A stretch of DNA of 64,000 bases from Ornithinimicrobium humiphilum. Its GTDB lineage: Bacteria; Actinomycetota; Actinomycetes; Actinomycetales; Dermatophilaceae. The stretch is taken from positions 620,001-684,000 of the forward strand of contig NZ_VFPU01000001.1 of the NCBI RefSeq assembly GCF_006716885.1, in the 5' to 3' direction. Both the position numbers and the translations under genes were made by a program. A model generated the notes under the pieces. It saw nothing but the letters and a program-made list of their open reading frames with translations, did no database searches and was not told the origin of the DNA. This document shows, in pieces, positions 38,453-63,661 of this stretch (position 1 is the first letter of the stretch; each line of letters opens with the position of its first letter).

Positions 38453-39385
38453 TCAGGGGACGACGATCGTGCCCGTCCGGCCGTCGGCCGCCTCGGTGAT
38501 GGAGGCCAGGTCGGTGACGACGGCCCGAGGGCCGCCGGCCTCGACGAAGCGTGTGACGGCCTCGACCTTGGGCAGCATCGAGCCCTCGCCGAACTCACCG
38601 GCACGGATGTGCCCGCGCATCTCCGCCGCGGTCACCTCGCCCAGGGGGCGGGCCTCGGGGGTGCCCCAGCCGAGGACGGCGTGCTCCACGTCGGTGGCGA
38701 TGATCAGCAGGTCGGCTCCGACCTGACGGCTCAGCAGGGTGGCCGTGAGGTCCTTGTCGATGACGGCCTCGACGCCGCGGTAGCCGCCGTCCGGGTCGGG
38801 GGCGACCGGGATGCCACCGCCACCCGAGGAGACGACGAGGAAGCCCTGGTCGAGGAGGGCCGTGACGGCGGGTGCGTCGACGATCTCGATCGGCTCGGGG
38901 GAGGCGACCAGTCGGCGCCAGCCCTTGGCGCCCTCGTTGCGCCATACCTGGCCCTGGGCCTGCATCTCGACGGCGCGCTCCGCGGTGGCGTAGGGGCCCA
39001 CCGCCTTGGTGGGCCGGGTGAAGGCCGGGTCGTCGGGGTCGACGCGGGTGCGGGAGATCAGGGCGGCGACGGGACGGGAGGCCTCCTGCGCGGCGAGGCT
39101 GCGTTCGAGGGCGTTGATCAGCGTGAAGCCGATGGTGCCCTGCGTCTGGGCGCCGCACCAGTCCAGGCTCACGGGCGTGAGCATGTGGGCGGAGAGCTCG
39201 TTCTTGAGCAGGATGTTGCCCACCTGCGGACCGTTGCCGTGCGTCAGGACGACCTCGTGGCCGGCGGCCACGAGCCGGGCGACGTGGTCGGCGGCGACCG
39301 CGATCGCCGCGCGCTGGTCGTCCGGCGTGGACCGGCCGTCCGGTGCCGTCATCGCGTTGCCCCCCAGGGCCAGGACGATCCTCAT
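38453..39385 (-). CDS. arcC: carbamate kinase (ArcC/AllK type)
   Basis: A 310-residue carbamate kinase starting MRIVLALGGNAM, with LTHGNGPQVGN, SSGGGGIPV and AVIDKDLTATLL typical of the amino-acid kinase fold. It interconverts carbamoyl phosphate + ADP and ATP + carbamate. GAAGGAG supports ATG 39385, which overlaps the upstream NmrA-like stop (ATGA). No arginine deiminase genes are near; instead hydantoinase, Mo hydroxylase and FdrA genes are, so it probably works catabolically to make ATP from carbamoyl phosphate released by the FdrA/DUF1116 enzyme. It is the last gene of the hyuA operon. Confidence 0.93.
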   Translation of the reverse strand: MRIVLALGGNAMTAPDGRSTPDDQRAAIAVAADHVARLVAAGHEVVLTHGNGPQVGNILLKNELSAHMLTPVSLDWCGAQTQGTIGFTLINALERSLAAQEASRPVAALISRTRVDPDDPAFTRPTKAVGPYATAERAVEMQAQGQVWRNEGAKGWRRLVASPEPIEIVDAPAVTALLDQGFLVVSSGGGGIPVAPDPDGGYRGVEAVIDKDLTATLLSRQVGADLLIIATDVEHAVLGWGTPEARPLGEVTAAEMRGHIRAGEFGEGSMLPKVEAVTRFVEAGGPRAVVTDLASITEAADGRTGTIVVP

Positions 39386-40236
39386 CGTGTCTCCTTCGTC
39401 AGCAGGTCCGCCCACGTGGTGGGCGGGCGCCCGAGCAACCGGGCAAGGGGAGCGGGGTCGACGGTGAACCCGCTCTCGTCGTAGGCGGCGAACATCGCCA
39501 GCAGGTCGGACAGGGCCGACGGGGGCAGGGCGGCGCCGGGGCCGGCACGCCAGGCCTCGGCCGTGGTGGCGGCGGCCTCGACCGGGCGCTCCAGCACCCG
39601 GGAGGCGGTCTCGGCCACCTCGAGGATCGTCAGCTCCTCGGGCCCGCCGAGCACGTGCGTGCTTCCGTCGGGCAGCCGGCCCGTGAGGGCGTCGGCGGCG
39701 ACCTCGGCGACGTCGCCGAGGTCCACGAGGGAGAAGGGGGCGTCGAGCCGGTAGGGGACCTCGACGCGGCCCGCGAGCACCGCGGGAAGCAGGTTCTGCT
39801 GGTAGGCGGCGGGGCGCAGGACCACGGTGCCGGGCCGGGCCGCGCGCAGCAGCTCCTCGGCCTCGCCCTTGCGCAGGTGGTGGGCCATCCGCCGGTCGTC
39901 GGGGTCGGCCACCGAGTGGTAGACGAGGCGGGCGACCCCCGCCTCGTCGGCGGCGCGCAGGGCGCGTCGGACGATCCCGACCTCGTCGGGGTGGACGTTG
40001 GGCACCACGAGGTAGGCCGCGTCCGCGCCGGTGAAGGCCTCGACCAGGCCCTCGCCGGTGGCCAGGTCGACGGCGACCGGCTCGACGGCCCGCGCCCCGT
40101 CCGCCAGCAGGCGGCCGGGGTCGCGGGTCGTGCCCCGGACGGTCAGCCCGCGGGCACGGGCCGCCGCGGCGACGGCGCGCCCGGTCTTGCCGGACGCGCC
40201 GAGCACCGTGACGGTCGCTCCCACGGGCAGGTCCAC
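39382..40236 (-). CDS. NmrA/SDR-like NAD(P)-binding protein
   Basis: A 284-residue atypical SDR. VTVLGASGKTGRAVA near the N-terminus is the dinucleotide loop and RPAAYQQNLL and SLVDLGDVAEVAADAL match the NmrA/azoreductase-like branch; no complete Tyr-x-x-x-Lys is obvious. It may be a redox sensor or a quinone/heterocycle reductase. GTG 40236 shares a base with the hyuB stop (TAGTG), and the stop overlaps carbamate kinase, so it is firmly within the hydantoinase operon. Its role there is unknown. Confidence 0.8.
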   Translation of the reverse strand: MDLPVGATVTVLGASGKTGRAVAAAARARGLTVRGTTRDPGRLLADGARAVEPVAVDLATGEGLVEAFTGADAAYLVVPNVHPDEVGIVRRALRAADEAGVARLVYHSVADPDDRRMAHHLRKGEAEELLRAARPGTVVLRPAAYQQNLLPAVLAGRVEVPYRLDAPFSLVDLGDVAEVAADALTGRLPDGSTHVLGGPEELTILEVAETASRVLERPVEAAATTAEAWRAGPGAALPPSALSDLLAMFAAYDESGFTVDPAPLARLLGRPPTTWADLLTKETR

Positions 40237-42110
40237 TACAGCCAGTCGACGTCGGCCGAGGTAGCGCCGCCGGAGAGCTGGGCGTAGCCCGGCCCGCGGT
40301 CGAAGAAGGGCTCCTCGCCGCGCTCGGAGCGCAGCTGCTCGCGCAGCGCCTCGGTGGCCTCGACGTCGATCACCGGCTGGTCCTTGGTGCCGGAGGCGAC
40401 CACGCCGTAGTCGGCGCGGGCACCCTCGAAGGACACCTTGCCCCAGCGCAGGTCGCGCTCGACCTCGTCGAGCGGACGGTCCAGCGGGTCGCCCCAGCCG
40501 CCACCACCGGTGGTGCGGATGCGGATGACCTCGCCGGCCGTGACGGGCTCGGCGTCGGCCAGCGCGTCGACGAAGCGCTCGTTGGGGCCGCCCGGGTCGA
40601 TGCAGACCTCGAACGGGCGCCCGGCGCGGCCACCCTTGACGCCCCAGCAGGACAGGATGGAGCGGTCGGCGATGGACATGAAGTTGGCGTCCTTGAGCAT
40701 CCGGATGTGCTTCTCGTAGCCCAGCCCGCCGCGGTAGCGGCCGGGACCGCCGGAGTCCACGGCCAGGCCGAGACGCTCGACGATGAACGGGAAGCGCGAC
40801 TCGGTGAACTCGGTCGGCAGGTTGCGGGAGTCCGGCACGACGTGGATGGTGTCCTCGCCGTCGGCGTAGTAGCGGCCGCCGGAGCCGCCGCCGAGCACCT
40901 CGCGCATGAGGTAGTCGTTGCCGTCTCGGTCCTTGCCGTAGACACCGGTGTAGCGGATCGTCTCCTGGTCGGCGGGCATGCGCCCGTCGACCGCCTTGGC
41001 CAGCACGCCGGCGAGGACGCCGAGCAGACGCAGGATGACGAACGTGCGGGCGTTGGTCGGCGCCGGGAAGATCGGCGTGAGCAGCGTGCCCTTCTCCGGG
41101 AACTTCATCTCGATGAGCGGCACGACGCCCTCGTTGACGTCGAGCTCGGCCATCCGCTCCGGGGTGTCCGCGAGGTTGCGGAGGATCGGGGCCAGCCACT
41201 TCTTGAGGAAGTTGCCGTCGGCGTAGTCGCCGCAGTGGTTGATCGGACCCTTGGCCTGCGGGGCGGTGCCGGTGAAGTCGATGACGATCTTCGGGCCGTC
41301 GCCGGGACCGCCGGTGCTGGTCTTGGTCAGCGTGATCCGCTGGGTGTGCAGCTTGGGGTCGTCGACGCCGTCGTGCTCGGCGTAGTCCTCCCAGACGTAC
41401 TCGCCGTCGGGGATCTTCGCGAGGATCTCGCGGCGGTAGGTCTCGGTGGTCTTGTCGAGGATCGCCTGGAAGGCGGCCTCGACGGTCTCCCGGCCGTAGC
41501 GCGTGAAGAGCTCGGACAGCCGCGCCGCCCCCATGAGGCAGGCGGAGCACTCGGCGTCGAGGTCGGCGGCCAGCGACTCCGGCATGCGGGAGTTGCGGGT
41601 CATGATCCGCAGCGCCGCCTGGTTGGGCACGCCCTGGTCCCACAGCTTGATCGGGGGGACCATGAGGCCCTCCTCGTAGACGCTGGTCGCGCTGGAGGGC
41701 ATCGAGCCCGGGCAGGCACCGCCGATGTCGTCGTGGTGGCCGAAGGCCTGGACGAAGCAGACGACCTCGCCCTCGTGGAAGACGGGCACGGTGACGCACA
41801 GGTCCGGGAGGTGGCCGATGCCGCCCTCGGACTCGTAGACGTCGTTGTGGAAGAAGACGTCGCCCTCACGCATGGTCTCCAGCGGGAAGTCGCGCACGAC
41901 GGGGTGCACGAGCGCGCTGTAGGAGCGACCCGTCAGCTTGCGCAGCTGACGGTCGTGGATGCCCGCGCGGAAGTCGTGGGCGTCACGGATCATCGGGCTG
42001 CGGGAGGTGCGGGCGATCGCCGTCTCCACCTCCATCTCGACGGAGGCGAGGGTGCCCTGGACGATCTCGACGACGATCGGGTCGACGGCAGGCGTGGTGG
42101 TGGTGCTCAT
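40236..42110 (-). CDS. hyuB: HyuB: ATP-dependent hydantoinase / 5-oxoprolinase, subunit B
   Basis: A 624-residue HyuB-family protein. DPIVVEIVQGTLASVEMEVE, SRSPMIRDAHDFRAGIHD, GDVFFHNDVYESEGGIGHLPD and GGPGRYRGGLGYEKHI are standard blocks. With HyuA it hydrolyses cyclic imides or lactams (N-methylhydantoin, 5-oxoproline, hydantoins) with ATP. It overlaps hyuA by four bases. The specific ring is not readable from sequence; the context points to a cyclic ureide. Confidence 0.93.
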   Translation of the reverse strand: MSTTTTPAVDPIVVEIVQGTLASVEMEVETAIARTSRSPMIRDAHDFRAGIHDRQLRKLTGRSYSALVHPVVRDFPLETMREGDVFFHNDVYESEGGIGHLPDLCVTVPVFHEGEVVCFVQAFGHHDDIGGACPGSMPSSATSVYEEGLMVPPIKLWDQGVPNQAALRIMTRNSRMPESLAADLDAECSACLMGAARLSELFTRYGRETVEAAFQAILDKTTETYRREILAKIPDGEYVWEDYAEHDGVDDPKLHTQRITLTKTSTGGPGDGPKIVIDFTGTAPQAKGPINHCGDYADGNFLKKWLAPILRNLADTPERMAELDVNEGVVPLIEMKFPEKGTLLTPIFPAPTNARTFVILRLLGVLAGVLAKAVDGRMPADQETIRYTGVYGKDRDGNDYLMREVLGGGSGGRYYADGEDTIHVVPDSRNLPTEFTESRFPFIVERLGLAVDSGGPGRYRGGLGYEKHIRMLKDANFMSIADRSILSCWGVKGGRAGRPFEVCIDPGGPNERFVDALADAEPVTAGEVIRIRTTGGGGWGDPLDRPLDEVERDLRWGKVSFEGARADYGVVASGTKDQPVIDVEATEALREQLRSERGEEPFFDRGPGYAQLSGGATSADVDWL

Positions 42111-45197: not shown

Positions 45198-47660
45198 TCA
45201 GCTCTCCTCGTCGTGCGCGGTCGAGGACGGGACGTCCCCGGCCTCGGGGGTGGTGGTCGTGGCGTCGGCGGCGGTGCGCCGGCGCAGCTCCCACAGGTCG
45301 GTGGGCGAGATGGGCATCCGGGTGATCCGGATGCCCTCGGCGTCCTCGATCGCGGAGGCGATCGCGGCGGTGGTGGGGATGGTGCCGGCCTCGCCGGCAC
45401 CCTTGATGCCGAGCGGGTTCAGCGGCGAGGGCGTCTCGAGGTGGTCCGTCTCGATGTGCGGCACCTCGGTGGCGAACGGCATGAGGAAGTCCATGAACGA
45501 GGCGTTGAGCAGCTGGCCGTCGGCGTCGTAGGCGAGGTGCTCGTAGAGCGCGCCACCGATGCCCTGGGCGACGCCGCCGTGGACCTGGCCCTCGACGATC
45601 ATCGGGTTGAGCATCGGGCCGCAGTCGTGAACGACGCAGTAGCGCAGCACCGTGATCTCGGCCGTGTCCGGGTCGGTCTCCACGATCGCGGCGTGCATGC
45701 CGTTGGCGAAGGTCGTCCGGACGGGCGAGAAGAACTCGCTCTCCTCCAGACCGGGGTGCTCCGCGTCGGCGATCGGCGGCTTCGACTCGTCCATCCTGCC
45801 GCCGAACTGGGTGGCGGCCCGGGCCGTCTCGTCGAAGGCGTAGCGCAGCGGGTTGGCCAGCACCGCGACCATCGGCAGCGGGATCTGGGTCTGGGGCGCA
45901 CCCTTGACCCGGACGATGCCGTCGACGATCTCCAGGTCGTCGGGATTGGCCTCGAGCGCGTCCGCCGCGATCTTGAGCGCGCGCTCCTTGACCTTGCGGG
46001 CCGTGAGCAGGAGGGCGTTGCCGCTCATCACGGCGCCGCGGGAGCCCCAGGTGCCGACCGAGTAGGCCATGCGGCGGGTGTCGCCGGTGGTCACGTGGAC
46101 GTCCTCGACCTTGACGCCGAGCTCGTCGGCGACGATCTGGGCGAAGACCGTCTGGTGGCCCTGGCCCTGGGTCGTCAGGCCGGTGGACACGTTGACGCGA
46201 CCGTTGGTCTCGATCTCGATGTGCCCGCCCTCGTAGGGACCGGCGCCGGTGCCCTCGACGTAGCACGCCATACCGATCCCGACCCGGCGGCCCTCGGCGC
46301 GGGCCTGCTCGCGGTAGGCCTCGAAGTCGTCCCAGCCGACGAGCTCCTTCAGCTTCTCCAGGCTGGTCGGGAAGTCGCCGGAGTCGTAGACGCCCATGCG
46401 GCCGTCCTGGAGCACCAGGCCCAGGTCCCAGGGCATCTCCTCGGGCTGGACGAAGTTGACGGCGCGCACCTCGGCCCGGTCCTTGCCGAGCGAGCGGGCG
46501 ACGGCGTCCATCGTGCGCTCCATGAGGTAGGCCGCCTGGGGCCGGCCGGCACCGCGGTAGGGCGTGACGATCACGGTGTTGGTGTAGAGGCTCGTGAACG
46601 TGACCGAGTAGTTGCGCATCTTGTACGGGCCCGGGATGTGGGTCGCCGTGTTGAGCGGGACGATGACGCCGTAGGGCATGTAGGCGCCGTGGTCGTGCCA
46701 GAGCTCGACCTCCAGGCCGAGGATGCGGCCGTCGTCGTCGAAGCCGACCCGCACGTGCTGCAGCTGCTGGCGCTCGTGCGCGGAGGAGATGAAGTGCTCG
46801 CGGCGGTCCTCGACCCACTTCACCGTGGTGCGCAGCCGCATCGCCGCGGCGGCGACCGCCACGTCCTCGGGCCAGGGGTGGACGATCTTGACGCCGAAGC
46901 CGCCTCCCACGTCGGGCGCGACGACGTCGACCGCGCTCAGCGGCAGGCCGAGCTTGGCGGCCAGGGCGGCGCGCAGACCGGTCGAGGTCTGCGTGGAGGC
47001 GTGCACCTTGAGGCGCCCCTCCTCGCCGTCCCAGCGGGCCAGGATGCCCCGGCCCTCCATCGGCATGCAGGCGCTGCGCTCGATGTCGAGGTCGAGCTCG
47101 AGCACGTGGGGAGCGGTGGCGATCTGGCCCGCGGCGTCGCCGAGGTGCTGCTCGAAGTAGGCACCGACGTTGCCGGGGGCCTCCTCGTGGACGACCCGCT
47201 CGGCCGCCCGGGCCGCGGCGACCCCGACGACGGCCGGGAGCACCTCGTAGGTGACGCGGACGCGCTGGGCAGCGTCCTCGGCGACGTAGCGGTCGCGGGC
47301 GACGACCATGACGACGGGCTCGCCCACGTGGTGGACCCGCTCCCGCGCCAGGGCGTAGCCGGTGACCGGGTTCTGGATGCTCGGGTGCGGGAGCAGCATC
47401 GGCAGCGGCTCGGCCGCGGTGCCGGTGCCCTCGAGGTCCTCGTAGGTCCAGACGGCCACGACGCCCTCGACGTCGATCGCCCCGGTGACGTCGATGTCGA
47501 CGACCTTGGCGTGGGCGTGCGGGCTGCGCACGAAGGACGCGGCCAGCGCGTCGTGCGCCAGGTCGTCGAGGTAGCGGCCGTCGCCCCGGACCAGGCGCGG
47601 GTCCTCGCGGCGCGTGATCGGTGCGCCGACGCTGCGGGTGTCGCCCGCGGTGGTGGTCAT
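45198..47660 (-). CDS. molybdenum hydroxylase large subunit (CoxL form II-like)
   Basis: An 820-residue Mo-cofactor subunit. DVGGGFGVKI and GQGHQT are Mo-binding blocks, and GIKGAGEAGT contains the catalytic Glu. The active-site loop is TPYRGAGRPQ, the form II pattern; true CO dehydrogenase has a Cys-containing loop, so CO oxidation is unlikely. The family hydroxylates N-heterocycles such as purines, pyrimidines and nicotinate. Next to a uracil/xanthine permease and a barbiturase it is a candidate uracil (or related) dehydrogenase. It overlaps its small subunit by four bases. Confidence 0.9.
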   Translation of the reverse strand: MTTTAGDTRSVGAPITRREDPRLVRGDGRYLDDLAHDALAASFVRSPHAHAKVVDIDVTGAIDVEGVVAVWTYEDLEGTGTAAEPLPMLLPHPSIQNPVTGYALARERVHHVGEPVVMVVARDRYVAEDAAQRVRVTYEVLPAVVGVAAARAAERVVHEEAPGNVGAYFEQHLGDAAGQIATAPHVLELDLDIERSACMPMEGRGILARWDGEEGRLKVHASTQTSTGLRAALAAKLGLPLSAVDVVAPDVGGGFGVKIVHPWPEDVAVAAAAMRLRTTVKWVEDRREHFISSAHERQQLQHVRVGFDDDGRILGLEVELWHDHGAYMPYGVIVPLNTATHIPGPYKMRNYSVTFTSLYTNTVIVTPYRGAGRPQAAYLMERTMDAVARSLGKDRAEVRAVNFVQPEEMPWDLGLVLQDGRMGVYDSGDFPTSLEKLKELVGWDDFEAYREQARAEGRRVGIGMACYVEGTGAGPYEGGHIEIETNGRVNVSTGLTTQGQGHQTVFAQIVADELGVKVEDVHVTTGDTRRMAYSVGTWGSRGAVMSGNALLLTARKVKERALKIAADALEANPDDLEIVDGIVRVKGAPQTQIPLPMVAVLANPLRYAFDETARAATQFGGRMDESKPPIADAEHPGLEESEFFSPVRTTFANGMHAAIVETDPDTAEITVLRYCVVHDCGPMLNPMIVEGQVHGGVAQGIGGALYEHLAYDADGQLLNASFMDFLMPFATEVPHIETDHLETPSPLNPLGIKGAGEAGTIPTTAAIASAIEDAEGIRITRMPISPTDLWELRRRTAADATTTTPEAGDVPSSTAHDEES

Positions 47661-48286
47661 CGGTCGCCCTCCTCGCGGCGCAGCTCGGCGGCGCGGCAGA
47701 CCGCCTTGACGATGTTCTGGTAGCCGGTGCAGCGGCACAGGTTGCCGGCCACGGCCTCGCGTGCCTCCTCCGGGCTGGGGTCGGGGTTCTCGTCGAGGTA
47801 GGCCGTGATCGTGGTGAGGAAGCCCGGGGTGCAGAAGCCGCACTGCAGGCCGTGGCACTCCACGAAGGCCTGCTGCACGGGACCGAGCTCGCCGTCGGGC
47901 CGGGTGAGGCCCTCCACCGTGGTGATCTCCGAGCCCTCGGCGCTCGCCGCGAACATCAGGCAGGCGCGGACGGGCCTGCCGTCCATCAGCACGGTGCAGG
48001 CGCCGCAGACGCCGTGCTCGCAGCCGACGTGGGTGCCGGTGAGCTCCAGGTCGTGCCGCAGCGCGTCCGAGAGCAGGCGTCGCCCCGGGACACGGATGTG
48101 GTGCTCGGCGCCGTTGACGCGCAGCCGCACGTCCACGAGCTCCTCGGGGCGGGCCTCCCCGCCCGCGGGGTCGAAGGGGGCGCGCGGGACCGTCGTGACG
48201 ACCCGGCCGCGGACGCTGCCGACGTGCGGCTGCGTCGGAGTCTGCCCTGCGGTGCCGTCGGTGGTGGACGTGCCGGGCGTGCTCAT
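47657..48286 (-). CDS. molybdenum hydroxylase 2Fe-2S subunit
   Basis: A 209-residue iron-sulfur subunit. The plant-type cluster has GCEHGVCGACTVLMDG and a following Cys, the second cluster CGFCTPGF and LCRCTGYQNI. About 45 extra N-terminal residues, Thr/Gly/Pro rich, precede the first fold. It passes electrons between the Mo site and FAD. ATGA overlaps on both sides place it in the coxM-S-L-G style operon. Confidence 0.92.
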   Translation of the reverse strand: MSTPGTSTTDGTAGQTPTQPHVGSVRGRVVTTVPRAPFDPAGGEARPEELVDVRLRVNGAEHHIRVPGRRLLSDALRHDLELTGTHVGCEHGVCGACTVLMDGRPVRACLMFAASAEGSEITTVEGLTRPDGELGPVQQAFVECHGLQCGFCTPGFLTTITAYLDENPDPSPEEAREAVAGNLCRCTGYQNIVKAVCRAAELRREEGDR

Positions 48287-49185
48287 GCGCTGGTCTCCTC
48301 GGTGGTGGTGGTCGTGGTCTCGCCCGCCAGCAGCCCCGCGAGCAGGCGGTTGGTCTGGACGGCGGCGAGGTGGCGCCGGTAGTCGGCGGTGGCGTGGATG
48401 TCGTCGACGGGGTCGACGAAGCTGCCGACGGCCTCGGTGACGGCCTCGGCCAGACCGGGCAGGTCGGCGGCGACGGCGCCCTCGAGGACGGGCGTCAGGT
48501 CGAGGACGGCGGGGACCTCGGTGAGCGAGACGAAGCCGGCGCGGGCGTCCTGCACGGGCCCGTCGGGGCCGTCGGTGCGGACCGCGAGGCCCACGCCGGC
48601 CATGGCGTAGTCGCCGTGGCGGCGGGCGATCTCGGAGAACGCGGTGCGGGTGCCCGCGGGGAAGCGGCCGAAGACGGCCTCGACGGCCAGCTCGTCGGCC
48701 AGCACGCAGGACTCCATCGGGCCGACGAAGAACTCCTCGGCGGGCACGGTGCGCTCGCCACGGCGGGAGCGCAGCACGACGGAGCCGCCGGTGAGGGCCA
48801 GGATCGCGGGCATCTCGCCCGCGGGGTCGGCGTGCACGAGGGAGCCGACCGTGGTGCCGCGGTTGCGGATGACGGGGTGGGCGACCCAGCGCAGGGCCTG
48901 CCCGAGCAGGGGGAGGGCGTCGCGGGCCTCGGCCGAGGCCAGCAGGTCGGCGTGGCGGACCAGGGCGCCGACCCGCACGGCGTCGTCGGTGACGGTGATG
49001 GCGTCGAGCCCCGGCACCCGGTTGATGTCGACGAGGTGCTCCGGGCCGGCCAGGCGCATGTTGAGGACCGGGACGAGGGACTGGCCCCCGGCGAGGATCT
49101 TGGCCTCCGTGCCCAGCTCGGCCAGCAGGTCGAGGACCTCCTCCACGTCGGCCGCTGCGTGGTAGACGAAGGGTGCCGGTTTCAT
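48283..49185 (-). CDS. molybdenum hydroxylase FAD-binding subunit
   Basis: A 300-residue FAD subunit: AKILAGGQSLVPVLNMRLA and IRNRGTTVGSLVHADPAGEMP are the two conserved FAD-binding motifs. The C-terminal CO_deh_flav_C domain is followed by a Thr/Glu tail. First gene of the four-gene Mo hydroxylase operon; ATG 49185 has AGGTGATCC upstream. It is separated from the permease gene by a 15-bp hairpin, so a separate promoter is likely. Confidence 0.92.
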   Translation of the reverse strand: MKPAPFVYHAAADVEEVLDLLAELGTEAKILAGGQSLVPVLNMRLAGPEHLVDINRVPGLDAITVTDDAVRVGALVRHADLLASAEARDALPLLGQALRWVAHPVIRNRGTTVGSLVHADPAGEMPAILALTGGSVVLRSRRGERTVPAEEFFVGPMESCVLADELAVEAVFGRFPAGTRTAFSEIARRHGDYAMAGVGLAVRTDGPDGPVQDARAGFVSLTEVPAVLDLTPVLEGAVAADLPGLAEAVTEAVGSFVDPVDDIHATADYRRHLAAVQTNRLLAGLLAGETTTTTTEETSA

Positions 49186-49308: not shown

Positions 49309-50859
49309 TCAGGCCCGGTCGGGCCCGCCGGAAGGCGTCGGGTCGGCGCCGGTCTCCTGCGCGTGCTCCTCGACGATCAGGTGCCCCTCGGGCGTGCGGC
49401 CCAGGATGCGGTGGCCGTAGAGGCCGTAGTTCTCGGCGAGGCCGAGGTTCTCCAGGTTCTGGCCGCCGGGCGGGTCGGCGATCGTCGCGGTGCCGAAGTT
49501 GGCCTCGCGCATGGAGGCGGGCATCAGCCAGGCCACCAGGTGGTAGGCGACGATCGTCACGATCGTGCCGAGCGCGATGCCGGCCAGCGAGAACGTGTCG
49601 GTGACGTTCAGCGAGGTGTCGCCGATGGCGATGATGATGCCGGCCGCGACGGGGACCAGGTTGATCGGGCGGGAGAAGTCGACCCTGTTCTCGACCCAGA
49701 TCTTGGCGCCGAGCAGGCCGATCATGCCGTAGAGGACCACGGTGATGCCGCCGAGGACACCGCCGGGGACCGCCGACACGAGCGCACCGAACTTCGGCGA
49801 GAGGCCGAAGGCGATGGCCACGACGGCCGCGGCGTAGTAGGCCGCCGTCGAGTAGACCCGGGTGGAGGCCATGACGCCGATGTTCTCGGCGTAGGTCGTG
49901 GTCGGCGAGCCACCGACCGAGCTGGCGAGGATGGTGCCGACACCGTCGGCGGCGATCGCGCGACCCATCATCGGGTCGAGGTCGGTCTTGGTCATCTCCT
50001 CGACGGCCTTGACGTGGCCGGCGTTCTCGGCGACCAGCGCGATGACCGCGGGCAGCATGAGCAGCACGAAGGTCAGGTTGACGTCGGGCAGGTGCCAGCC
50101 GACGACGCCGTTGGCGGTGTCGGTCGCGGGCGGGAAGCCGAACCACGGGGCGGAGACGACGCCGTCCCAGTTGACGCGGTTGTGGGTGTCGACCTCGCCG
50201 GTGCCGGCGTTGTAGGCCGTGATCGGGCCGGTGGTCAGGTCGGCCAGCCAGGACACGACATACCCGAAGATCAGGCCGAGCAGGACCGAGACGCGGCCCC
50301 AGAAGCCCGGGAGGATCGTGGCGAGCAGGATGGTCACGGTCATCGTGGCCAGCGCGATCCACTGGTCCTGGGGCCAGTAGATGTTGGCGACCACGGGCGC
50401 CAGGTTGAAGCCGATGAGCATGACGACCGCGCCGGTCACCACCGGCGGCAGCACCTTCGTCAGCGCCGCGGCGCCGATGAAGTGGATGAGGACGCCGACG
50501 AGCGCGAGCACGATGCCGGCGACGAGGATCGCGCCGGTGACCTGCTGCGGCGAGCCGCCCTGGGCGTAGACCGCCGCGGCACCGCCGACGAAGGCGGCCG
50601 ACGTGCCCAGATAGCTGGGCACCTTGCCGTTGACGATGAGCAGGAACGCGATCGTCGCGATGCCGCTCATCATGATGGCCAGCTGGGGGTTCAGCCCCAT
50701 GACGATGGGGAAGACGAACGTGGCACCGAACATCGCCACGACGTGCTGCGCGCCCAGGCCGACGGTCCGGCCCCAGCTCAGGCGCTCATCAGGGGCTACG
50801 ACGGCTCCCGGGGCCAGCGTCTTGCCGTCCCCGTGGAGCTTCCATCCAAAAGCCGCCAC
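49309..50859 (-). CDS. uracil-xanthine permease (NCS2 family)
   Basis: A 516-residue transporter with about 14 helices. LGAQHVVAMFGATFVFPIV, ASSVGGSPTTTYAENIGVM (the QNxGxxxxT-like motif region) and GGITVVLYGMIGLLGAKIW are characteristic of UraA/UapA-type proteins. It imports a nucleobase with protons. GTG 50859 is set by GGAG eight bases before it; longer frames lack a ribosome site. The C-terminal 70 residues are soluble and Asn/Glu rich. With PucR, Mo hydroxylase and barbiturase next door, uracil, thymine or xanthine are the likely substrates. Confidence 0.93.
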   Translation of the reverse strand: MAAFGWKLHGDGKTLAPGAVVAPDERLSWGRTVGLGAQHVVAMFGATFVFPIVMGLNPQLAIMMSGIATIAFLLIVNGKVPSYLGTSAAFVGGAAAVYAQGGSPQQVTGAILVAGIVLALVGVLIHFIGAAALTKVLPPVVTGAVVMLIGFNLAPVVANIYWPQDQWIALATMTVTILLATILPGFWGRVSVLLGLIFGYVVSWLADLTTGPITAYNAGTGEVDTHNRVNWDGVVSAPWFGFPPATDTANGVVGWHLPDVNLTFVLLMLPAVIALVAENAGHVKAVEEMTKTDLDPMMGRAIAADGVGTILASSVGGSPTTTYAENIGVMASTRVYSTAAYYAAAVVAIAFGLSPKFGALVSAVPGGVLGGITVVLYGMIGLLGAKIWVENRVDFSRPINLVPVAAGIIIAIGDTSLNVTDTFSLAGIALGTIVTIVAYHLVAWLMPASMREANFGTATIADPPGGQNLENLGLAENYGLYGHRILGRTPEGHLIVEEHAQETGADPTPSGGPDRA

Positions 50860-51121: not shown

Positions 51122-52789
51122 TCAGGGCGAGTCGAGCTGCCTGGCCTGCAGCGCCAGCATGATGGCGAAGCGCAGCCGCGGGTCGGTGGTGAAGGGCCCG
51201 AGCAGCCGCTCGAGCTTGCCGATGCGGTAGCGCAGCGAGTTGTAGTGGAAGTGCAGCGCGCGGGCGGTGAGGGCGACGTTGAGGTTGTTGTCCAGGAGCA
51301 CGGTCAGCGTCGTGCGCAGGTCCTCGGCCTCCTCGGAGGTGTCGTCGGCCAGCGGCCCCAGCGTCTCGGCGATGAAGCTGGCGAGCTCGGCGCGGTCCTC
51401 GACCTGCGAGAGCAGCCGGAAGACGCCGAGGGCGTCGAAGTGGGTGACCGCGCGCTCGCCGTGGAGCCGTCGTCCGACCTGGACGGCCTTGCGGGCCTCG
51501 GCGTAGGCCCGGGGCAGGTCGGCCAGGTCGGTGATCGTGCGGGAGATGCCGGTGGCGAAGGTGCGTCGTCCGCCGCCGCCGCGCCCGTGGACGACGCCGG
51601 CCATGGCCCTGACCTTCTCCGTCACGCCGGCGGGGTCGAGCTCGGCGGGCACCCCGAGCAGGACGACGACCTCCTGGCTGAAGCCGGCGACGGCGGTGAG
51701 CTCGTCGTCGGCGCCCACCGCGCGCTCCCAGGCCGCCCGGAAGCGCTCGGGCAGGGTGCGCGCCACCGGGTCGTCGTCGTCCGGGGCCTCCGCCTCGGCG
51801 ACCACGACCGCCATCGGCCGGCGCAGGTCCCAGCCGAGGTCGGCGGCGTGCGAGGCCACCCGCTCGGGGTCGCCGGCCCGGCCCAGCAGGGCGTCGAGCA
51901 GGAAGTCGCCGCGGTACTTGCCCTCGACGGCGGCCACCGCCTGCTGCTTGGTGATCGCCAGCGCGGCGGCCGTGGTGGCCTGGCCGACCACGTGGTTGTC
52001 CTCGGCGGTGAAGGGGTCCTCGCGCAGCAGGACCAGCCGACCGAGGTCGACCCCGCCGCCGGCGCCGCCGCCGGGGATCCGGGCGACGAACCGGTGGGTC
52101 CCGGAGAACTCCGACGACATCCCGGGCAGCTCGGTCTCGACGAGGAACCGGCCGGTGGGGTCGAAGCCGGGGAGGGTGCCCAGGTCCTCGGGCAGCTCGC
52201 CCGCGGAGGCCAGCACCCGTCCGTCCATCGTGGTCACCAGGGCGGCGCGGGCGAGGTGCCGCACGACGCCCTGGCACACCTGGTCGAGGTCGCCGCCGGC
52301 GATGACCACGCCGACGAGGTCCTGCAGCACCTGCTCGGCGCGGGCCAGGGTGTCGGCCCGCTGGTTGATCACCCGGGTGAGGACCTGGTTGATCACGTCG
52401 TCGAAGCTCACCTCCGCCGGCAGCGCGAGCACCGGCAGCCCGCGCCGGTCCGCCTCGGCGAGCGCCGCGGCGGGCAGCTCCTCCACGTAGCGGGCCAGCT
52501 TGATCCCGACGCCCCCCACGCCGGCGTCCGCGAGGCCGTTGACCCAGGCGATCAGGTCCTCGGCGTCGTGCGACTGCAGCGGGTAGCCCGTCGTGAGCAG
52601 CAGCTCGCGGGGCCGCACCCACGGCAGGACGTCCGGCACCTCCATGACGTTCACGCTGCTGACGAGACCGTCCAGACCGTCGCGCCCGGCCAGCACGGAG
52701 GTGCCCTCGAGCACGGGCAGCTCGAGCACCTCGGCCAGGCTCACCCCGGAGGGTGCCGGGGTGGACACCGGCGACAGTTGACGATGCAT
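51122..52789 (-). CDS. pucR: PucR-family transcriptional regulator
   Basis: A 555-residue regulator. The N-terminal PucR domain (about 15-130) has VNVMEVPDVLPWVRPRELLL; a central CdaR/GGDEF-like segment (about 290-410) includes TFATGISRTITDLADLPRAY; the C-terminal HTH_30 (about 490-550) has NVALTARALHFHYNSLRYRI. PucR proteins control purine and related nitrogen-ring catabolism, usually as activators. ATG 52789 is chosen since TATGAC lies 12 bp upstream; ATG 52810 and 52840 are alternatives. It is divergent from the DUF2877-fdrA operon and on the same strand as the permease. Confidence 0.9.
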   Translation of the reverse strand: MHRQLSPVSTPAPSGVSLAEVLELPVLEGTSVLAGRDGLDGLVSSVNVMEVPDVLPWVRPRELLLTTGYPLQSHDAEDLIAWVNGLADAGVGGVGIKLARYVEELPAAALAEADRRGLPVLALPAEVSFDDVINQVLTRVINQRADTLARAEQVLQDLVGVVIAGGDLDQVCQGVVRHLARAALVTTMDGRVLASAGELPEDLGTLPGFDPTGRFLVETELPGMSSEFSGTHRFVARIPGGGAGGGVDLGRLVLLREDPFTAEDNHVVGQATTAAALAITKQQAVAAVEGKYRGDFLLDALLGRAGDPERVASHAADLGWDLRRPMAVVVAEAEAPDDDDPVARTLPERFRAAWERAVGADDELTAVAGFSQEVVVLLGVPAELDPAGVTEKVRAMAGVVHGRGGGGRRTFATGISRTITDLADLPRAYAEARKAVQVGRRLHGERAVTHFDALGVFRLLSQVEDRAELASFIAETLGPLADDTSEEAEDLRTTLTVLLDNNLNVALTARALHFHYNSLRYRIGKLERLLGPFTTDPRLRFAIMLALQARQLDSP

Positions 52790-52851: not shown

Positions 52852-53724
52852 GTGCCGAGCCTCGCCGTGGACCCGTCCCCGCCGGCCGCCGCGCCCGCGG
52901 CGCCGTCGGTCGGACCGGCGAGCGCGCCCCGGGCCGCGCTGCTCCCGGCGGCCGCGTCCACGCTCGCCCCCGCCTGGCTGCACGGCGCCCCGGCCCCCGC
53001 GACGGTCGTCGGCACCTTCGACAGCGCCGCCTACCTCCTGCGCGACGACGAGGTCCTGCCGCTGCTCGCCCCGGGGGCGCTGCTGCTGCCCGGCGGCCTG
53101 CGCCTCGCCACGGCCGACGACCTGCGTGCCCTGCGACTGCGGACCGGTGACGAGGTCGAGGTCGGGAGCGGGACGGTCCTGGCTCGCGGCGGCGCGCTGG
53201 CCGTGCGCCGCACCTGGCGCCCGCGCCGCGTGCCGCAGGCCTCGCTGCCCCTGGCCCACCGCGGCGCCGCGCTCGCCGCCGTCCTGGCCACCCCGCACCT
53301 CACCGACGACCTGCCCGCGCCGCTCCTGGACACCCTGCACGCGGCCGAGGACGGCGCGCTCCCGGACGTCGCGGCGCTCCTCGGTCTGGGTCCCGGCCTG
53401 ACCCCCGCCGGCGACGACCTGCTCTGCGGGCTGCTGCTCGGGCTGCGCGCCACCGACGGCGAGGCGCACGGCATACCCGAGGATGTCGGTGCCGCGGCGC
53501 ACCGGACCACCGCCCTCTCCGCCACGCTGCTCCGCCAGGCCGCCCTGGGGTATGCCGTTCCCCCCGTGGTCGAGCTGCTCTCATCCTGGCACGGCGCACC
53601 CGCCGACCTCACACTCCCGACGAGCCGCGTGGCGGCCGTCGGGCACACCTCCGGCCGGGCGCTCCTGCTCGGTCTGGCCGTCGCTCTCCTGATCGACCCG
53701 ACCCCTTCGGAAGGACCGTCGTGA
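52852..53724 (+). CDS. DUF2877 protein (AllH/YlbF-like, oxamate carbamoyltransferase component)
   Basis: A 290-residue protein with Ala/Pro-rich N-terminus, then LLLPGGLRLA, LLGLGPGLTPAGDDLLCGLL (the DUF2877 signature) and GHTSGRALLLGLAVAL near the end. In E. coli the homologous gene lies with fdrA and ylbE, and the three products were reported to form the oxamate carbamoyltransferase that ends allantoin breakdown. GTG 52852 follows TATCGT by six bases. Its stop overlaps fdrA (GTGA). It contains two copies of the dispersed 10-mer in opposite orientation. Confidence 0.85.
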   Translation: MPSLAVDPSPPAAAPAAPSVGPASAPRAALLPAAASTLAPAWLHGAPAPATVVGTFDSAAYLLRDDEVLPLLAPGALLLPGGLRLATADDLRALRLRTGDEVEVGSGTVLARGGALAVRRTWRPRRVPQASLPLAHRGAALAAVLATPHLTDDLPAPLLDTLHAAEDGALPDVAALLGLGPGLTPAGDDLLCGLLLGLRATDGEAHGIPEDVGAAAHRTTALSATLLRQAALGYAVPPVVELLSSWHGAPADLTLPTSRVAAVGHTSGRALLLGLAVALLIDPTPSEGPS

Positions 53725-55253
53725 CTGACTCTGTCGAGATCCGGCGCGGTGTCTACTACGACTCCGTGACCCTGATGCAGGTCTCCCAACGGGTGCGCAC
53801 GGCACCCGGCGTCTCGGACGCGCTCATCGGCATGGGCACCGAGCTCAACCTCGGGCTCATGCGCGAGAACGGCTTCGAGGTGCCGGCCGAGGCCGGCCCC
53901 AACGACCTGGTCGTCGCCCTCCGCGCCGCGGACGACGAGGCCCTGGCCGGCGCCGGCGCTGCGCTGGAGGCCGTGCTGCAGGAGCTGCTGGAGCGCTCCC
54001 GCGCGACGGGGGGCACCACCGAGGTGGCGCCTCGCACCATCAGCTCGGCGGCGCGCCGCTCGGGCGCCGGCCTCGCCCTGATCAGCACGCCGGGGACGCA
54101 CGCGGTGGCCGACGCGCTCGACGCGATCTCCTCGGGGATGTCGGTCGTGCTCTTCAGCGACAACATCTCCGTCGCGGACGAGATCCGCCTCAAGGACGCC
54201 GCCGCCGCCAGGGACGTGCTCGTCATGGGCCCGGACTGCGGCACCGCCGTCGTCGGCGGCGCCGCCCTCGGCTTCGCCAACGTCGTCCGCCCCGGGCGCG
54301 TGGGTCTCGTCGCCGCCTCCGGCACCGGCGCGCAGCAGGTGATGTGCCTGCTCGACCTGGCCGGCGAGGGCGTCAGCCACGTCCTCGGCCTGGGTGGTCG
54401 CGACCTCTCCGCCGAGGTCGGGGGCCGTTCGGCCCGCCAGGCCCTGCGCGCGCTCGCCGCCGACGAGGCGACCGAGCACGTCGTCATCGTGTCCAAGCCC
54501 GCCGCCCCCGAGGTCGTCGAGAGCCTCGAGCAGCTGGCCGCCGAGCTGGGCGTGCCGGTCTCCTGGGCCACGCTCGGCCGGGGCCGCGCCGACCTGACCG
54601 CCGCCGTCGAGGACGTCCTCGCCGCGCTCGGCACCCCGGTGCCGACGTGGCCGTCCTGGCCCGCCGAGGGGGGCGGGGGCGGTGCGCCGTCCGGCGGCTC
54701 GCTGCGCGGTCTCTTCTGCGGCGGCACGCTCGCCGACGAGGCGATGCTCGTGGCCGAGCCGGTCCTCGGGCCGATCACCTCCAACATCCCGCTGGCGGGC
54801 AGCCCCCGCGTCTCCGGGACCGACCAGCTCACCGGGCACGCCGTCCTCGACTTCGGCGACGACGAGCTGACCCAGGGCCGGGCCCACCCGATGATCGACC
54901 CCGCCCTGCGGCTGGAGCGGATCCGTGAGCAGGGGGCCGACCCCGGCTGCGGCGTCCTCCTCCTCGACCTCGTCCTCGGCCACGGCTCCCACCCCGACCC
55001 CTCGGGCGAACTGGCCGATGCGATCCGCGACGCCCGCACGGCCGCCGCCGGGCGCGGCGTCGAGCTGCCGGTCGTCGTCGCCCTGGTCGGCACCGAGTCC
55101 GACCCCCAGGGCCTCACGGCCTGCGCGCAGACCCTGGCCGCGGCCGGGGCGAGCGTCCACACCTCCAACGCCGAGGCCGTCCGGGTGGCGCTGTCGCACC
55201 TGGGCACCCCCGCCGAACCCACCCCGTCGCAGACCGGAAGGACCGACCGATGA
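53721..55253 (+). CDS. fdrA: FdrA-family protein (AllF-like, carbamoyltransferase component)
   Basis: A 510-residue protein with two succinyl-CoA-synthetase-like Rossmann units. VVRPGRVGLVAASGTGAQQV, VLFSDNISVADEI and MGPDCGTAVV are the FdrA motifs, and a Gly-rich hinge (WPAEGGGGGAPSGG) separates the C-terminal half. FdrA is the partner of DUF1116 and DUF2877. GTG 53721 overlaps the preceding stop; the following gene overlaps it by ATGA. The proposed reaction here is phosphorolysis of an N-carbamoyl amide. Confidence 0.9.
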   Translation: MTDSVEIRRGVYYDSVTLMQVSQRVRTAPGVSDALIGMGTELNLGLMRENGFEVPAEAGPNDLVVALRAADDEALAGAGAALEAVLQELLERSRATGGTTEVAPRTISSAARRSGAGLALISTPGTHAVADALDAISSGMSVVLFSDNISVADEIRLKDAAAARDVLVMGPDCGTAVVGGAALGFANVVRPGRVGLVAASGTGAQQVMCLLDLAGEGVSHVLGLGGRDLSAEVGGRSARQALRALAADEATEHVVIVSKPAAPEVVESLEQLAAELGVPVSWATLGRGRADLTAAVEDVLAALGTPVPTWPSWPAEGGGGGAPSGGSLRGLFCGGTLADEAMLVAEPVLGPITSNIPLAGSPRVSGTDQLTGHAVLDFGDDELTQGRAHPMIDPALRLERIREQGADPGCGVLLLDLVLGHGSHPDPSGELADAIRDARTAAAGRGVELPVVVALVGTESDPQGLTACAQTLAAAGASVHTSNAEAVRVALSHLGTPAEPTPSQTGRTDR

Positions 55254-56680
55254 GCACCAGCCCGCTGCACGGCCTGCTGTCCCGCGAGCCCGCCGTCGTC
55301 ACCGCCGGCGCGCCCCTCTTCGCCGACGCCCTGCGCGCGCAGGCCGTCCCGGTGACCGACGTCGAGTGGCGCCCACCGCTCGAGGGCACCGCCGACGCGG
55401 TCGCCCGGGTGCTCGCCGACCCCCGCCGCGTCGAGGCCAACGCGCTCGCGCTGGAGCGGATCACCTCTGCCGGCGCCGAGCTCGTGCGGCTCGCGCCCGC
55501 CAGCGAGGCGCTGGACCTCAAGCCCGGCGAGTTCCTCCACAGCGGTCCGCCGCTGACCTGGGAGCGCGCCTCCGGCCCGATGCGCGGCGCCCTCATCGGC
55601 GCCATGCTCTTCGAGGGCCTCGCGGAGACCGAGGAGGAGGCCGTCGAGAAGCTCGCCGGCCCCGACATCACCCTGGCCCCGTGCCACAGCCGCGGTGCGG
55701 TCGGCCCGATGGCCGGCGTCATCTCGCCGTCGATGTGGGTCTTCGAGCTGCGCGACCCGGTGCACGGCACCGTCTCCCACTGCTCGCTCAACGAGGGCCT
55801 GGGCAAGGTGCTGCGCTACGGCGCCTACTCCGAGGAGGTGCTCGTCCGGCTCCGCTGGATGCGCGACGTGCTCGGCCCGGTGCTCGGCGAGGCCGTCGAG
55901 CGGCACGGTCCGATCGACATCAAGGCCTACCTGGCCCAGATGCTCCAGATGGGCGACGAGGGTCACAACCGCAACCGCAGCGCCACGCTGATGTTCCTGC
56001 GCGACCTGCTGCCGCACATCGTCACCCAGGTGGGGGAGCGCAGCGCCGAGGACATCGCCGAGGTCTGCCGCTTCGTCGGCGCCAACGACCACTTCGCCCT
56101 CAACCTCGTCATGCCGGCCTGCAAGCTGGCGATGGCGGCGGCCAAGGGCATCGAGGGCTCCTCCGTCGTGGTGACGATGGCCCGCAACGGCACCGACTTC
56201 GGCATCCAGCTCGCCGGCACCGGCGACGAGTGGTTCACCGCGCCGGCGAACACGCCGCAGGGTCTCTTCCTCGGCTCCTACGGGCCCGAGGACGCCAACC
56301 CCGACATCGGCGACTCCGCGATCACCGAGACCGCCGGCATGGGTGGCTTCGTCATGGCGACGGCCCCGGCGATCGTCCGCCTGGTCGGCGGTGACGTCGA
56401 CTTCGCGCTGACCACCACCCGCACCATGTACGAGATCACCCTGGGCGAGCACCCGACCCTGCAGGTGCCGATCCTGGAGTTCCGCGGCGCGCCGATCGCC
56501 ATCGACGCGGTCGCGGTCGCCCGCACCGGCGTCCTCCCGCAGATCAACACCGGTATGGCCGGCAGGGTCGCGGGCGTCGGTCAGGTCGGCGCCGGCCTGG
56601 TCACCCCGCCGGAGGACGTCTTCGTCCAGGCCCTGCAGGCGCTCGCCGAGCGGGTCCCGGCCGGTGGGGGCGCAGCATGA
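55250..56680 (+). CDS. DUF1116 protein (YlbE/AllG-like, carbamoyltransferase component)
   Basis: A 476-residue DUF1116 member: ADPRRVEANALALERI, GPMAGVISPSMWVFELRDP, LNEGLGKVLRYGAYSEEVL, DEGHNRNRSATLMFLRDLLP and VMARNGTDFGIQLAGT are the long conserved blocks. It is the third part of the FdrA complex. It overlaps both fdrA and the amidase gene by four bases, so the four plus-strand genes are one translationally coupled unit. Confidence 0.9.
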   Translation: MSTSPLHGLLSREPAVVTAGAPLFADALRAQAVPVTDVEWRPPLEGTADAVARVLADPRRVEANALALERITSAGAELVRLAPASEALDLKPGEFLHSGPPLTWERASGPMRGALIGAMLFEGLAETEEEAVEKLAGPDITLAPCHSRGAVGPMAGVISPSMWVFELRDPVHGTVSHCSLNEGLGKVLRYGAYSEEVLVRLRWMRDVLGPVLGEAVERHGPIDIKAYLAQMLQMGDEGHNRNRSATLMFLRDLLPHIVTQVGERSAEDIAEVCRFVGANDHFALNLVMPACKLAMAAAKGIEGSSVVVTMARNGTDFGIQLAGTGDEWFTAPANTPQGLFLGSYGPEDANPDIGDSAITETAGMGGFVMATAPAIVRLVGGDVDFALTTTRTMYEITLGEHPTLQVPILEFRGAPIAIDAVAVARTGVLPQINTGMAGRVAGVGQVGAGLVTPPEDVFVQALQALAERVPAGGGAA

Positions 56681-58165: not shown

Positions 58166-58182
58166 GCCCGCCGATGACGGAT

Positions 58183-58201
58183 GTCACGGTCAGGTCGTGA
58201 C
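58183..58201 (+). promoter_or_regulatory. inverted repeat upstream of the ABC/two-component operon
   Basis: GTCACG-N7-CGTGAC, 45 bp before the ATPase ATG. It is shaped like a NarL/LuxR-type response-regulator site and may be bound by the operon's own regulator. Confidence 0.5.
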
Positions 58202-58245
58202 GGACGACGGGGGTGGCCCCCGGTGTCGGGAACCAGGCTTGAGGC

Positions 58246-59180
<935 letters not shown>

Positions 59181-59184
<4 letters not shown>

Positions 59185-61641: not shown

Positions 61642-61659
61642 CTCGCCGAGCCACCCGGC

Positions 61660-62496: not shown

Positions 62497-62524
62497 TGCA
62501 GCCCTCCCGTGCCCGTACGGAGGG

Positions 62525-63661
62525 TCAGCGGGTCGGGGGCACGTAGCCCGTCGGCTCCGCACCCAGGTCGACGATCGCCGCGACCGGTCCGCCGCCGTCG
62601 GGGCCCTGGTGGGCGGCCGAGACGGAGACGAAGACGGCCGGGTCACCGGTCACCGCGGCGGTGACGCCGCCGACGGCGGCCTTGATCTGGCGGTGCCAGT
62701 GCACGTCGGAGTCGTCCAGCATCGCGTTGCGACGGCCCAGGACCTTGCCGTCCTGGCTCGCCTCGCACTTGAGGAAGACGTTGACCAGGCGACCCTGCAG
62801 GTCGTCGCGGTGCGGGCGCTCCGGCAGGTCGAGGCCGGCGTTGCGGATGGCGTTCCATATGCCGTCCTGGTCGAGCGCGTGCTCCATGACCGAGTGGCCG
62901 ATCCGGTAGCGGCCGCCGATGCCCGTGGCGTTGCCCACGACGACGACCTGCGCGCGGTCGAGCTCGACGCCCGAGGAGCAGGAGGCGACCGCGGAGTACT
63001 TGCTCCGGTCGCGCATGATGTCGTCGTTCGTCAGCTCGGTGACCTCGCCGAGGGCCTTGGCGATGCCGAGGCCGGTGGTGCCGTTGGAGACGTCCATCGA
63101 GGTGAGGGTGTCGTCGGTGAAGACGGTCTCCCCGCGGCTGTGCGCGTCGCGGATGGTGTCGATCGTCAGCAGCGGCGTCTTGGTCTGCACGTAGTGGACC
63201 TCGGCCGGGTCGGTGATGCCCGCGCGCTCCATGGCGACCTTCACGGCGTCGGCGACCTTGTCGACCATGCCCATGCGCCCGATCTCCTCGGGCAGGATCG
63301 GCTCGCTCATCGCCATGCCGACCGTGAGGCGGGGCTCGTCGGTGGCCTCCACGGTCGAGGGGTCGACGGTGGCGAAGATCGTCGCGTGGGGGCTGATGAC
63401 GCCGTCGGTGCCACCGGACCACACGATCGGGATCTGCCGGACCTTGTCCTCGGCCACGCCCTTGGCCATCAGCGCCTCGCGGAAGGCCCGGTCGGCGATG
63501 ATGCGCGTGTAGTCGTTGACGCCGCCATTGCCTTCGGTCTTGCCGATGATCGCCAGGACCCGGTCGGCCTCCAGGACCCCCTCGTCCAGCAGTCGGGTGA
63601 ACTCGCTCGCGTCGCTCACGGAGTGGATCGGGACCTTGCGTACCTCGATGGGCTCGGGCAT
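62525..63661 (-). CDS. barbiturase (ring-opening amidohydrolase, cyanuric acid hydrolase family)
   Basis: A 378-residue member of the barbiturase/AtzD family with its three-fold repeat and Ser-Lys pairs: K41 in [12 protein letters not shown] with S82 in [10 protein letters not shown]161 in VQTKTPLL with the Ser in [11 protein letters not shown], and K298 in [10 protein letters not shown] with the Ser in [15 protein letters not shown]. The wording is very close to what I remember of Rhodococcus erythropolis barbiturase. It opens barbiturate to ureidomalonate in oxidative pyrimidine breakdown. ATG 63661 follows GGAAGAAAGG. A perfect 15-bp palindrome lies 70 bp upstream. Confidence 0.92.

Follow-up and report, generated by a model that had tools for sequence, protein, structure and literature searches.

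How is ureidomalonate cleaved by a bacterium whose barbiturase gene lies near genes for an AllFGH-type transcarbamylase and a carbamate kinase? A 64,000-nucleotide (nt) stretch of DNA from Ornithinimicrobium humiphilum (hereafter, the window; its own genome, of 3.44 Mb, is G000) raises this question with a locus at 38.4-63.7 kb. As the best explanation we favor, with a probability of about 80%, an oxidative route for uracil that ends in phosphorolysis and conserves energy. In the proposed pathway, barbiturase would convert barbiturate to ureidomalonate (on strong homology); AllFGH would convert ureidomalonate and phosphate to malonamate and carbamoyl phosphate, replacing the hydrolytic ureidomalonase of Rhodococcus; carbamate kinase would turn carbamoyl phosphate and ADP into ATP, CO2, and ammonia; and an amidase (in other genomes, a nitrilase-superfamily hydrolase) would probably convert malonamate to malonate. 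The window's candidate genes for these steps are as follows (nt positions, strand):

52852..53724, +: AllH (DUF2877); Pfam AllH, 80 bits
53721..55253, +: AllF (FdrA); Pfam Ligase_CoA; NF004760, 384 bits (under the cut-off of 433)
55250..56680, +: AllG (DUF1116); Pfam AllG, 314 bits
56677..58101, +: amidase-signature enzyme overlapping allG, proposed malonamate amidohydrolase; Pfam Amidase, 309 bits
38453..39385, -: ArcC/AllK-like carbamate kinase; NF009007, 297 bits (cut-off 266); TIGR00746, 337 bits (under the cut-off of 358)
62525..63661, -: barbiturase; 617 bits to Protein Data Bank (PDB) entry 5hwe, "Barbiturase"

An earlier note on this DNA had proposed the phosphorolytic route. At the level of sequence, it is supported by co-occurrence, by linkage, by the replacement of AllG by an amidase, and by the distribution of urease; the first three are why we would assign ureidomalonate cleavage to AllFGH.

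Soong et al., in 2001 and 2002, are said to have described the oxidative pathway of Rhodococcus erythropolis JCM 3132 as uracil/thymine dehydrogenase, barbiturase, and ureidomalonase (presumably EC 3.5.1.95). To our knowledge, this is the only organism with biochemical work on the pathway, and we know of no gene assigned to either uracil dehydrogenase or ureidomalonase. In the portion of PMC3758960 available to us, the oxidative route is called rare and is described as ending in malonate and urea; the available part of PMC3961730 gives JCM 3132 as the same strain as CCM2595. According to the accessible portion of PMC11326118, it is established that AllFGH of E. coli acts on oxalurate. All three homologous subunits of the E. 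coli allFGHK system (oxamic transcarbamylase and carbamate kinase) are present in the window, with AllF recognized as Ligase_CoA and the kinase gene (arcC) in a facing operon, and the expected chemistry is the same: a ureide and phosphate give an amide acid and carbamoyl phosphate. The setting differs from that of the known enzyme in that the window's genes are linked to barbiturase and not to allantoin genes, its AllG belongs to a separate clade, and the proposed substrate has one more CH2. We therefore propose a known enzyme family acting on a new substrate, in a variant of a known pathway. The earlier note knew of no description of this combination, and likewise we found no open-licence paper that joins barbiturase with AllFGH or carbamate kinase.

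AllG and barbiturase across the Actinomycetes

We searched for both AllG and the AtzD/barbiturase family in the same 296 Actinomycetes genomes. Both were found in 61 genomes, AllG only in 11, the barbiturase family only in 6, and neither in 218. Put differently, 61 of the 72 genomes with AllG have a member of the barbiturase family, and 61 of the 67 genomes with the family have AllG (Fisher p 1.6e-44). The two genes lie on one contig in 37 of the 61 genomes, and in 30 of these 37 they are at most 50 kb apart. The co-occurrence beyond this genome that the earlier note had set as a test is thus found in 61 of 296 genomes, with one conserved cluster wherever we inspected it, and it suggests that the pathway in these bacteria ends differently, in a step that yields ATP. 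The AllFGH transcarbamylase, which was identified recently, would gain a likely second substrate.

Most of the exceptions have a simple description. Among the six genomes with the barbiturase family only, four (G031, G093, G100, and G122) carry AtzD homologs that are just 37-41% identical to the window's protein, and G014 is 72% complete, which leaves G206 as a real exception. Among the 11 genomes with AllG only, 10 have an AllG that lies outside the barbiturase-linked clade; the assembly of the remaining one, G108, is 80% complete. This clade has 46 rows in the tree, with support of 95/95 (some outer branches are long); it includes all 35 barbiturase-positive rows and the AllG of the window, and it excludes E. 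coli AllG. At 16 positions of AllG, the residues are specific to the clade (46 rows versus 6), for example Ala107 for Met and Gly438 for His, and these residues would suit a larger pocket.

To describe the cluster, we compared 10 segments: the window and nine genomes that were picked because AllG and barbiturase are at most 50 kb apart. Genes for a PucR-family regulator (pucR), for two subunits of a molybdenum (Mo) hydroxylase (coxM and coxL), and for an ATP-dependent cyclic amidase (hyuA and hyuB) are in the same cluster in all 10; ncs2 (a nucleobase permease), coxS, coxG, allF, and arcC were each called in nine; and a NmrA-like gene was called in five. In eight of the 10 segments, the window not among them, arcC adjoins barbiturase. 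The window's type of amidase is found in four segments; in the window it follows allG, and in the three others it separates coxG from hyuA. In four further segments, a gene for a carbon-nitrogen hydrolase occupies the space from the cox genes to hyuA, so that 8/10 have one or the other. (Orthologs of the window amidase, at 50-53% identity, are in G045, G202, G176, and G310.) A class III CoA transferase is near the cluster in four of the 10 segments, as is a carboxyltransferase-domain protein (Carboxyl_trans), also in four. All of these enzymes would be expected if malonate is the product, and the last two may activate malonate where they are linked. We also examined 80 named AllG loci with flanks of up to 10 kb. 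Some contigs are short, so the following are lower bounds: coxL has a match in at least 64 of the 80 loci and NCS2 in at least 68, four of the latter being just 32-33% identical.

Could AllFGH instead serve ordinary purine (allantoin) breakdown, and adjoin barbiturase because nitrogen-scavenging genes cluster? There is a uricase gene in G000, and the PucR family takes its Pfam name from purine catabolism. Uricase has matches in 122 of the 296 genomes. Close homologs of HyuB (E<=1e-200) are in 63 of the 296 genomes, 61 of these 63 are positive for the barbiturase family, and 60 genomes have AllG, HyuB, and barbiturase together; 38 of these 60 have uricase and 22 have no match to it, which implies that oxalurate derived from purines is not needed. 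We rejected oxalurate from urate as the substrate of AllFGH on these grounds. Furthermore, AllG is associated much more closely with barbiturase (p 1.6e-44) than with uricase (p 0.03), and none of the window genes that we scanned with Pfam (25.4-63.7 kb) is an allantoin gene. We consider this explanation to be the least credible of the alternatives, with hardly any weight.

Actinobacteria-like AllG was also seen in two loci titled as other groups, L063 (Acidobacteria) and L119 (Spirochaetaceae). The barbiturase of L063 is 91% identical to that of the window, and both loci are probably misbinned contigs.

AllFGH and the Rhodococcus-type amidase

If AllFGH cleaves ureidomalonate, what is found in relatives of R. 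erythropolis? As a query against 251 genomes from a single family, we used the sequence of 5hwe, which we take to come from R. erythropolis. Fifteen genomes carry a barbiturase of this type (five of them are 99-100% identical). AllG is present in one of the 15 (G310) and absent from the other 14, and in 13 of these 14, a distinct amidase-signature gene adjoins barbiturase. We refer to it as the Rhodococcus-type amidase; it is at L191:17423-18790 (-), and its orthologs adjoin barbiturase in 12 more genomes. When we searched 78 genomes for its orthologs (E<=1e-130), we found them (77-100% identity) in those 13 genomes, in none of the 61 genomes with AllG and barbiturase (the 60 of the class that also have HyuB, and G310). 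The earlier note saw no hydrolase of the classical type at this locus, and this candidate ureidomalonase is absent from G000 at that threshold. G310 belongs to the same family as the 13 amidase genomes and has the other arrangement: arcC is beside barbiturase, and allH, allF, and allG are followed by an amidase of the window's type.

Two genomes of the R. erythropolis type, G369 and G517, have barbiturases that are orthologous to the window's (77-78% identity). Their loci share genes for the Mo hydroxylase, CoxG, HyuAB, NCS2, PucR, the CoA transferase, and the carboxyltransferase; the Mo hydroxylase, NCS2, HyuAB, and PucR genes are common to these loci and the window. The amidase-signature gene is immediately next to barbiturase in both, and arcC was not found in the 60-80 kb that we examined. 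In contrast, AllFGH and carbamate kinase are encoded in the window, and G000 lacks the amidase that adjoins barbiturase in those two genomes. The simplest reading is that AllFGH and the Rhodococcus-type amidase do one job, the cleavage of ureidomalonate, by phosphorolysis and by hydrolysis, respectively, and that the amidase is a candidate for ureidomalonase. We consider the mutual replacement of AllG and this amidase to be the decisive observation for the phosphorolytic reading.

Hydrolysis would yield urea, as in the described route. Urease is present in 13 of 13 genomes with the Rhodococcus-type amidase versus 21 of 61 genomes with AllG and barbiturase (Fisher p 8.9e-6), and G154 is a marginal match among the 21. 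Most of the AllG-type genomes (40/61) thus lack it. If urea carboxylase (over the cut-off) is counted as well, the numbers are 13/13 versus 24/61 (p 6.8e-5). The same reasoning about AllFGH and urease is applied to enteric bacteria in the accessible part of PMC11326118.

Alternatively, the window's own amidase could be the ureidomalonase, giving malonate and urea, with AllFGH handling another ureide such as oxalurate. This amidase and the Rhodococcus-type candidate do belong to the same amidase-signature family, at 37-39% identity. But the window type is found in just four of the 10 segments with AllG and barbiturase, and four others have a carbon-nitrogen hydrolase; the Rhodococcus type is found in 0/61 of the AllG and barbiturase genomes; and we found neither urease nor urea carboxylase in G000 with which to use the urea. 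We regard this alternative as improbable and prefer phosphorolysis by AllFGH.

Barbiturase, permease, Mo hydroxylase and HyuAB

Is the window's barbiturase really a barbiturase? It is the sole AtzD-family gene that we found in G000. Its nearest solved relative is 5hwe, and the six other solved sequences of the family score at most 310 bits, on which basis we rejected cyanuric acid hydrolase as its identity. It belongs to the family of the cyanuric acid hydrolases (AtzD/TrzD) and, like them, has the conserved Lys in the Ser-Lys dyad, but they give only about half the score of 5hwe; similarly, the window amidase has 219 bits on the AtzE model, under the cut-off of 426. We also considered a residue signature. 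Barbiturase is described as having Gln in place of Arg188 of cyanuric acid hydrolase, in the portion of PMC4051656 that was accessible. The equivalent residue is Asn in the window's protein, in 5hwe, and in 30 of 30 close homologs, and it is also Asn in three of five distant family members, so an Asn/Arg signature is not exclusive and we rejected it as a marker. Strong homology is what identifies the predicted barbiturase. In G209 (C1:430503-431631), the barbiturase match is split between model positions 1-115 and 116-358, which may reflect a broken gene or a misassembly.

The remaining genes of the cluster in the window are:

51122..52744, -: PucR-family regulator, which likely provides control; Pfam PucR, HTH_30
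49309..50733, -: NCS2 nucleobase permease, uracil type; RutG model, 342 bits (under the cut-off of 759)
48283..49185, -: CoxM, FAD subunit; Pfam FAD_binding_5
47657..48286, -: CoxS, [2Fe-2S] subunit; Pfam Fer2, Fer2_2
45198..47660, -: CoxL, large subunit of a form II-like Mo hydroxylase; Pfam MoCoBD_1/2; NF040766, 1453 bits
44505..45197, -: CoxG; Pfam COXG, 82 bits
42107..44254, -: HyuA, ATP-binding subunit; Pfam Hydantoinase_A, Hydant_A_N/C
40236..42110, -: HyuB, subunit of an ATP-dependent cyclic amidase family enzyme; Pfam Hydantoinase_B, 460 bits
39382..40236, -: NmrA-like NAD(P)-binding protein; Pfam NmrA/NAD_binding_10

The permease, which would import the base, scores 166-171 bits against solved uracil permeases versus at most 67 bits against uric acid-xanthine permeases, and its motif is YAENIGVMASTR. 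For the Mo hydroxylase, which we propose from its context to be a uracil (thymine) dehydrogenase that would oxidize uracil to barbiturate, the active-site loop of form I CO dehydrogenase, AYRCSFR, provides a comparison: CoxL has PYRGAGR instead, and GAGEAG, in 16/16 orthologs. The nearest solved relatives of CoxL are 6-hydroxypseudooxynicotine dehydrogenase (434 bits), quinoline 2-oxidoreductase (427), and CO dehydrogenase (418). The loop and these relatives make the NCBIfam label "CODH_aero_grp5" doubtful for these orthologs. The Mo hydroxylase is conserved in the cluster both in window-type segments and in G369 and G517. We thereby name candidate genes for uracil dehydrogenase as well as ureidomalonase, and the labels "CO dehydrogenase" and "cyanuric acid amidohydrolase" on these orthologs probably hide pyrimidine metabolism.

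The cluster might mainly degrade another six-membered ring, such as a substituted or methylated pyrimidine. Sequence does not fix what the Mo hydroxylase and HyuAB act on, and in three genomes of a single genus HyuB occurs but barbiturase does not. Given the uracil-type permease and the close kinship to the solved barbiturase, we judge this to be unlikely, although it is the strongest of the alternatives, and we retain uracil as the substrate.

HyuAB resembles the cyclic amidases of the HyuAB/CapAB family (caprolactamase, N-methylhydantoinase, and 5-oxoprolinase), for which the accessible part of PMC8453981 defines phosphate-binding motifs. It has two subunits and both motifs: DxGGTxTD and a second DxGGT are in 16 of 17 HyuA orthologs, with HyuB adjacent. 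It differs in that the window's HyuA has 512 bits versus a cut-off of 1000 for NCBIfam caprolactamase. HyuAB is present in AllG-type clusters, in G369 and G517, and in other amidase-type genomes. Since it accompanies both ureidomalonate branches, it probably acts outside ureidomalonate cleavage and the carbamoyl phosphate branch. We rated a role in the malonamate step as unlikely because HyuAB also occurs where malonamate should not form.

HyuAB is also central to another alternative, an oxalurate operon in which the Mo hydroxylase oxidizes hydantoin, HyuAB converts parabanate to oxalurate, and AllFGH converts oxalurate to oxamate and carbamoyl phosphate. HyuAB is in the family of ATP-dependent hydantoinases and caprolactamase, and E. 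coli AllFGH does act on oxalurate (PMC11326118, in the portion accessible). However, such an operon leaves barbiturase without a role, yet 61 of the 63 genomes with HyuB are positive for the barbiturase family; G369 and G517 have HyuAB and the Mo hydroxylase but lack AllG; and the permease is uracil-like. We rejected oxalurate from hydantoin or parabanate via HyuAB because HyuAB also occurs without AllG, and we consider such an operon very improbable compared with ureidomalonate phosphorolysis.

Our guess is that HyuAB opens another product of oxidation, such as the 5-methylbarbiturate that thymine would give. Among the matches listed in the open-licence literature, we found no use of methylbarbiturate. 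A more ambitious reading, which we offer tentatively and would not bet on as a whole, is that the AllFGH clade is a ureidomalonate phosphorylase (malonamate carbamoyltransferase), a new enzyme in a pathway, widespread in actinobacteria, whose own carbamoyl phosphate pays for pyrimidine breakdown; that HyuAB spends ATP to open 5-methylbarbiturate; that the group 5 "CODH" enzymes linked to the cluster are the uracil/thymine dehydrogenase; and that the Rhodococcus-type amidase is ureidomalonase. One cluster would then take uracil and thymine to malonate and methylmalonate.

In one genus with 37 genomes, barbiturase is present in eight, and HyuB is present in all eight. Three other genomes of this genus (G266, G524, and G525) have HyuB without barbiturase; G266 (L202, L187, and L203) retains a unit of Mo hydroxylase, NCS2, and HyuAB. 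Conversely, the Mo hydroxylase, NCS2, and barbiturase are present in G206, where no close HyuB was found.

Several points weigh against ureidomalonate phosphorolysis in a uracil pathway. In the genome counts, AllG stands in for AllFGH, and AllF and AllH were seen in the inspected segments only; all of the genome counts and Fisher p values are uncorrected for relatedness. The replacing amidase was seen in two genera of one family, so there may have been few independent evolutionary events. Barbiturase occurs without either AllG or the Rhodococcus-type amidase in G206, G347, and G014 (72% complete); perhaps G206 (L173, L188, and L204) and G347 (L201 and L206), the latter with no urease found, cleave ureidomalonate by a third mechanism. 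The 80 kb examined around barbiturase and the amidase in G502 and G471 yielded neither a Mo hydroxylase nor HyuAB. Twenty-one of the 61 genomes with AllG and barbiturase do have urease, and neither type of amidase nor the carbon-nitrogen hydrolase was found in two of the 10 segments. NCBIfam labels the window's barbiturase as cyanuric acid amidohydrolase (459 bits, cut-off 360) and its Mo hydroxylase as CO dehydrogenase (NF040766, cut-off 950). Finally, HyuAB has no place in the proposed scheme, which does not need it.

Layout of the locus and neighboring genes

The region at 38.4-63.7 kb consists of two divergent operons and a separate barbiturase gene. From PucR, the leftward operon runs NCS2, CoxM, CoxS, CoxL, CoxG, HyuA, HyuB, NmrA-like, and carbamate kinase, and the rightward operon runs AllH, AllF, AllG, and amidase. 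Overlaps of 4 bases within allH/allF/allG/amidase, hyuA/hyuB, and nmrA-like/arcC suggest coupled translation. The earlier note had named PucR, NCS2, the Mo hydroxylase, barbiturase, the FdrA/DUF1116/DUF2877 trio, the amidase, and carbamate kinase; profile searches found every one of them at about the position it gave, and the gene starts were refined later. It had not listed HyuA/HyuB (40236-44254), CoxG, the NmrA-like gene, or an ATP-binding cassette (ABC) transporter of the BMP type (33752-38380).

Two groups of neighboring genes complete the picture:

58246-61641: ABC-transporter ATPase and two-component system, between the amidase and barbiturase
33752..38380, +: BMP-type ABC transporter (binding protein, ATPase, and two permeases); Pfam Bmp, ABC_tran, BPD_transp_2

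Barbiturase lies 4.4 kb past the amidase, with the first group in between. The AllG of the window is 88% and 91% identical to those of loci from O. pekingense and O. sp. CNJ-824, respectively. In the O. pekingense locus (L062), the amidase starts at about 11 kb and barbiturase at about 13 kb, and there is no match to the window's ABC transporter. The 58246-61641 block is apparently missing between the amidase and barbiturase in O. pekingense and so was probably inserted in the window.

The BMP-type transporter faces the leftward operon and is possibly an importer of pyrimidine nucleosides. In G310, between hyuA and nmrA and on the opposite strand, there is a gene that is 25% identical to the BMP binding protein along with an ABC ATPase-like gene, and the same interval has two further genes of similar size.

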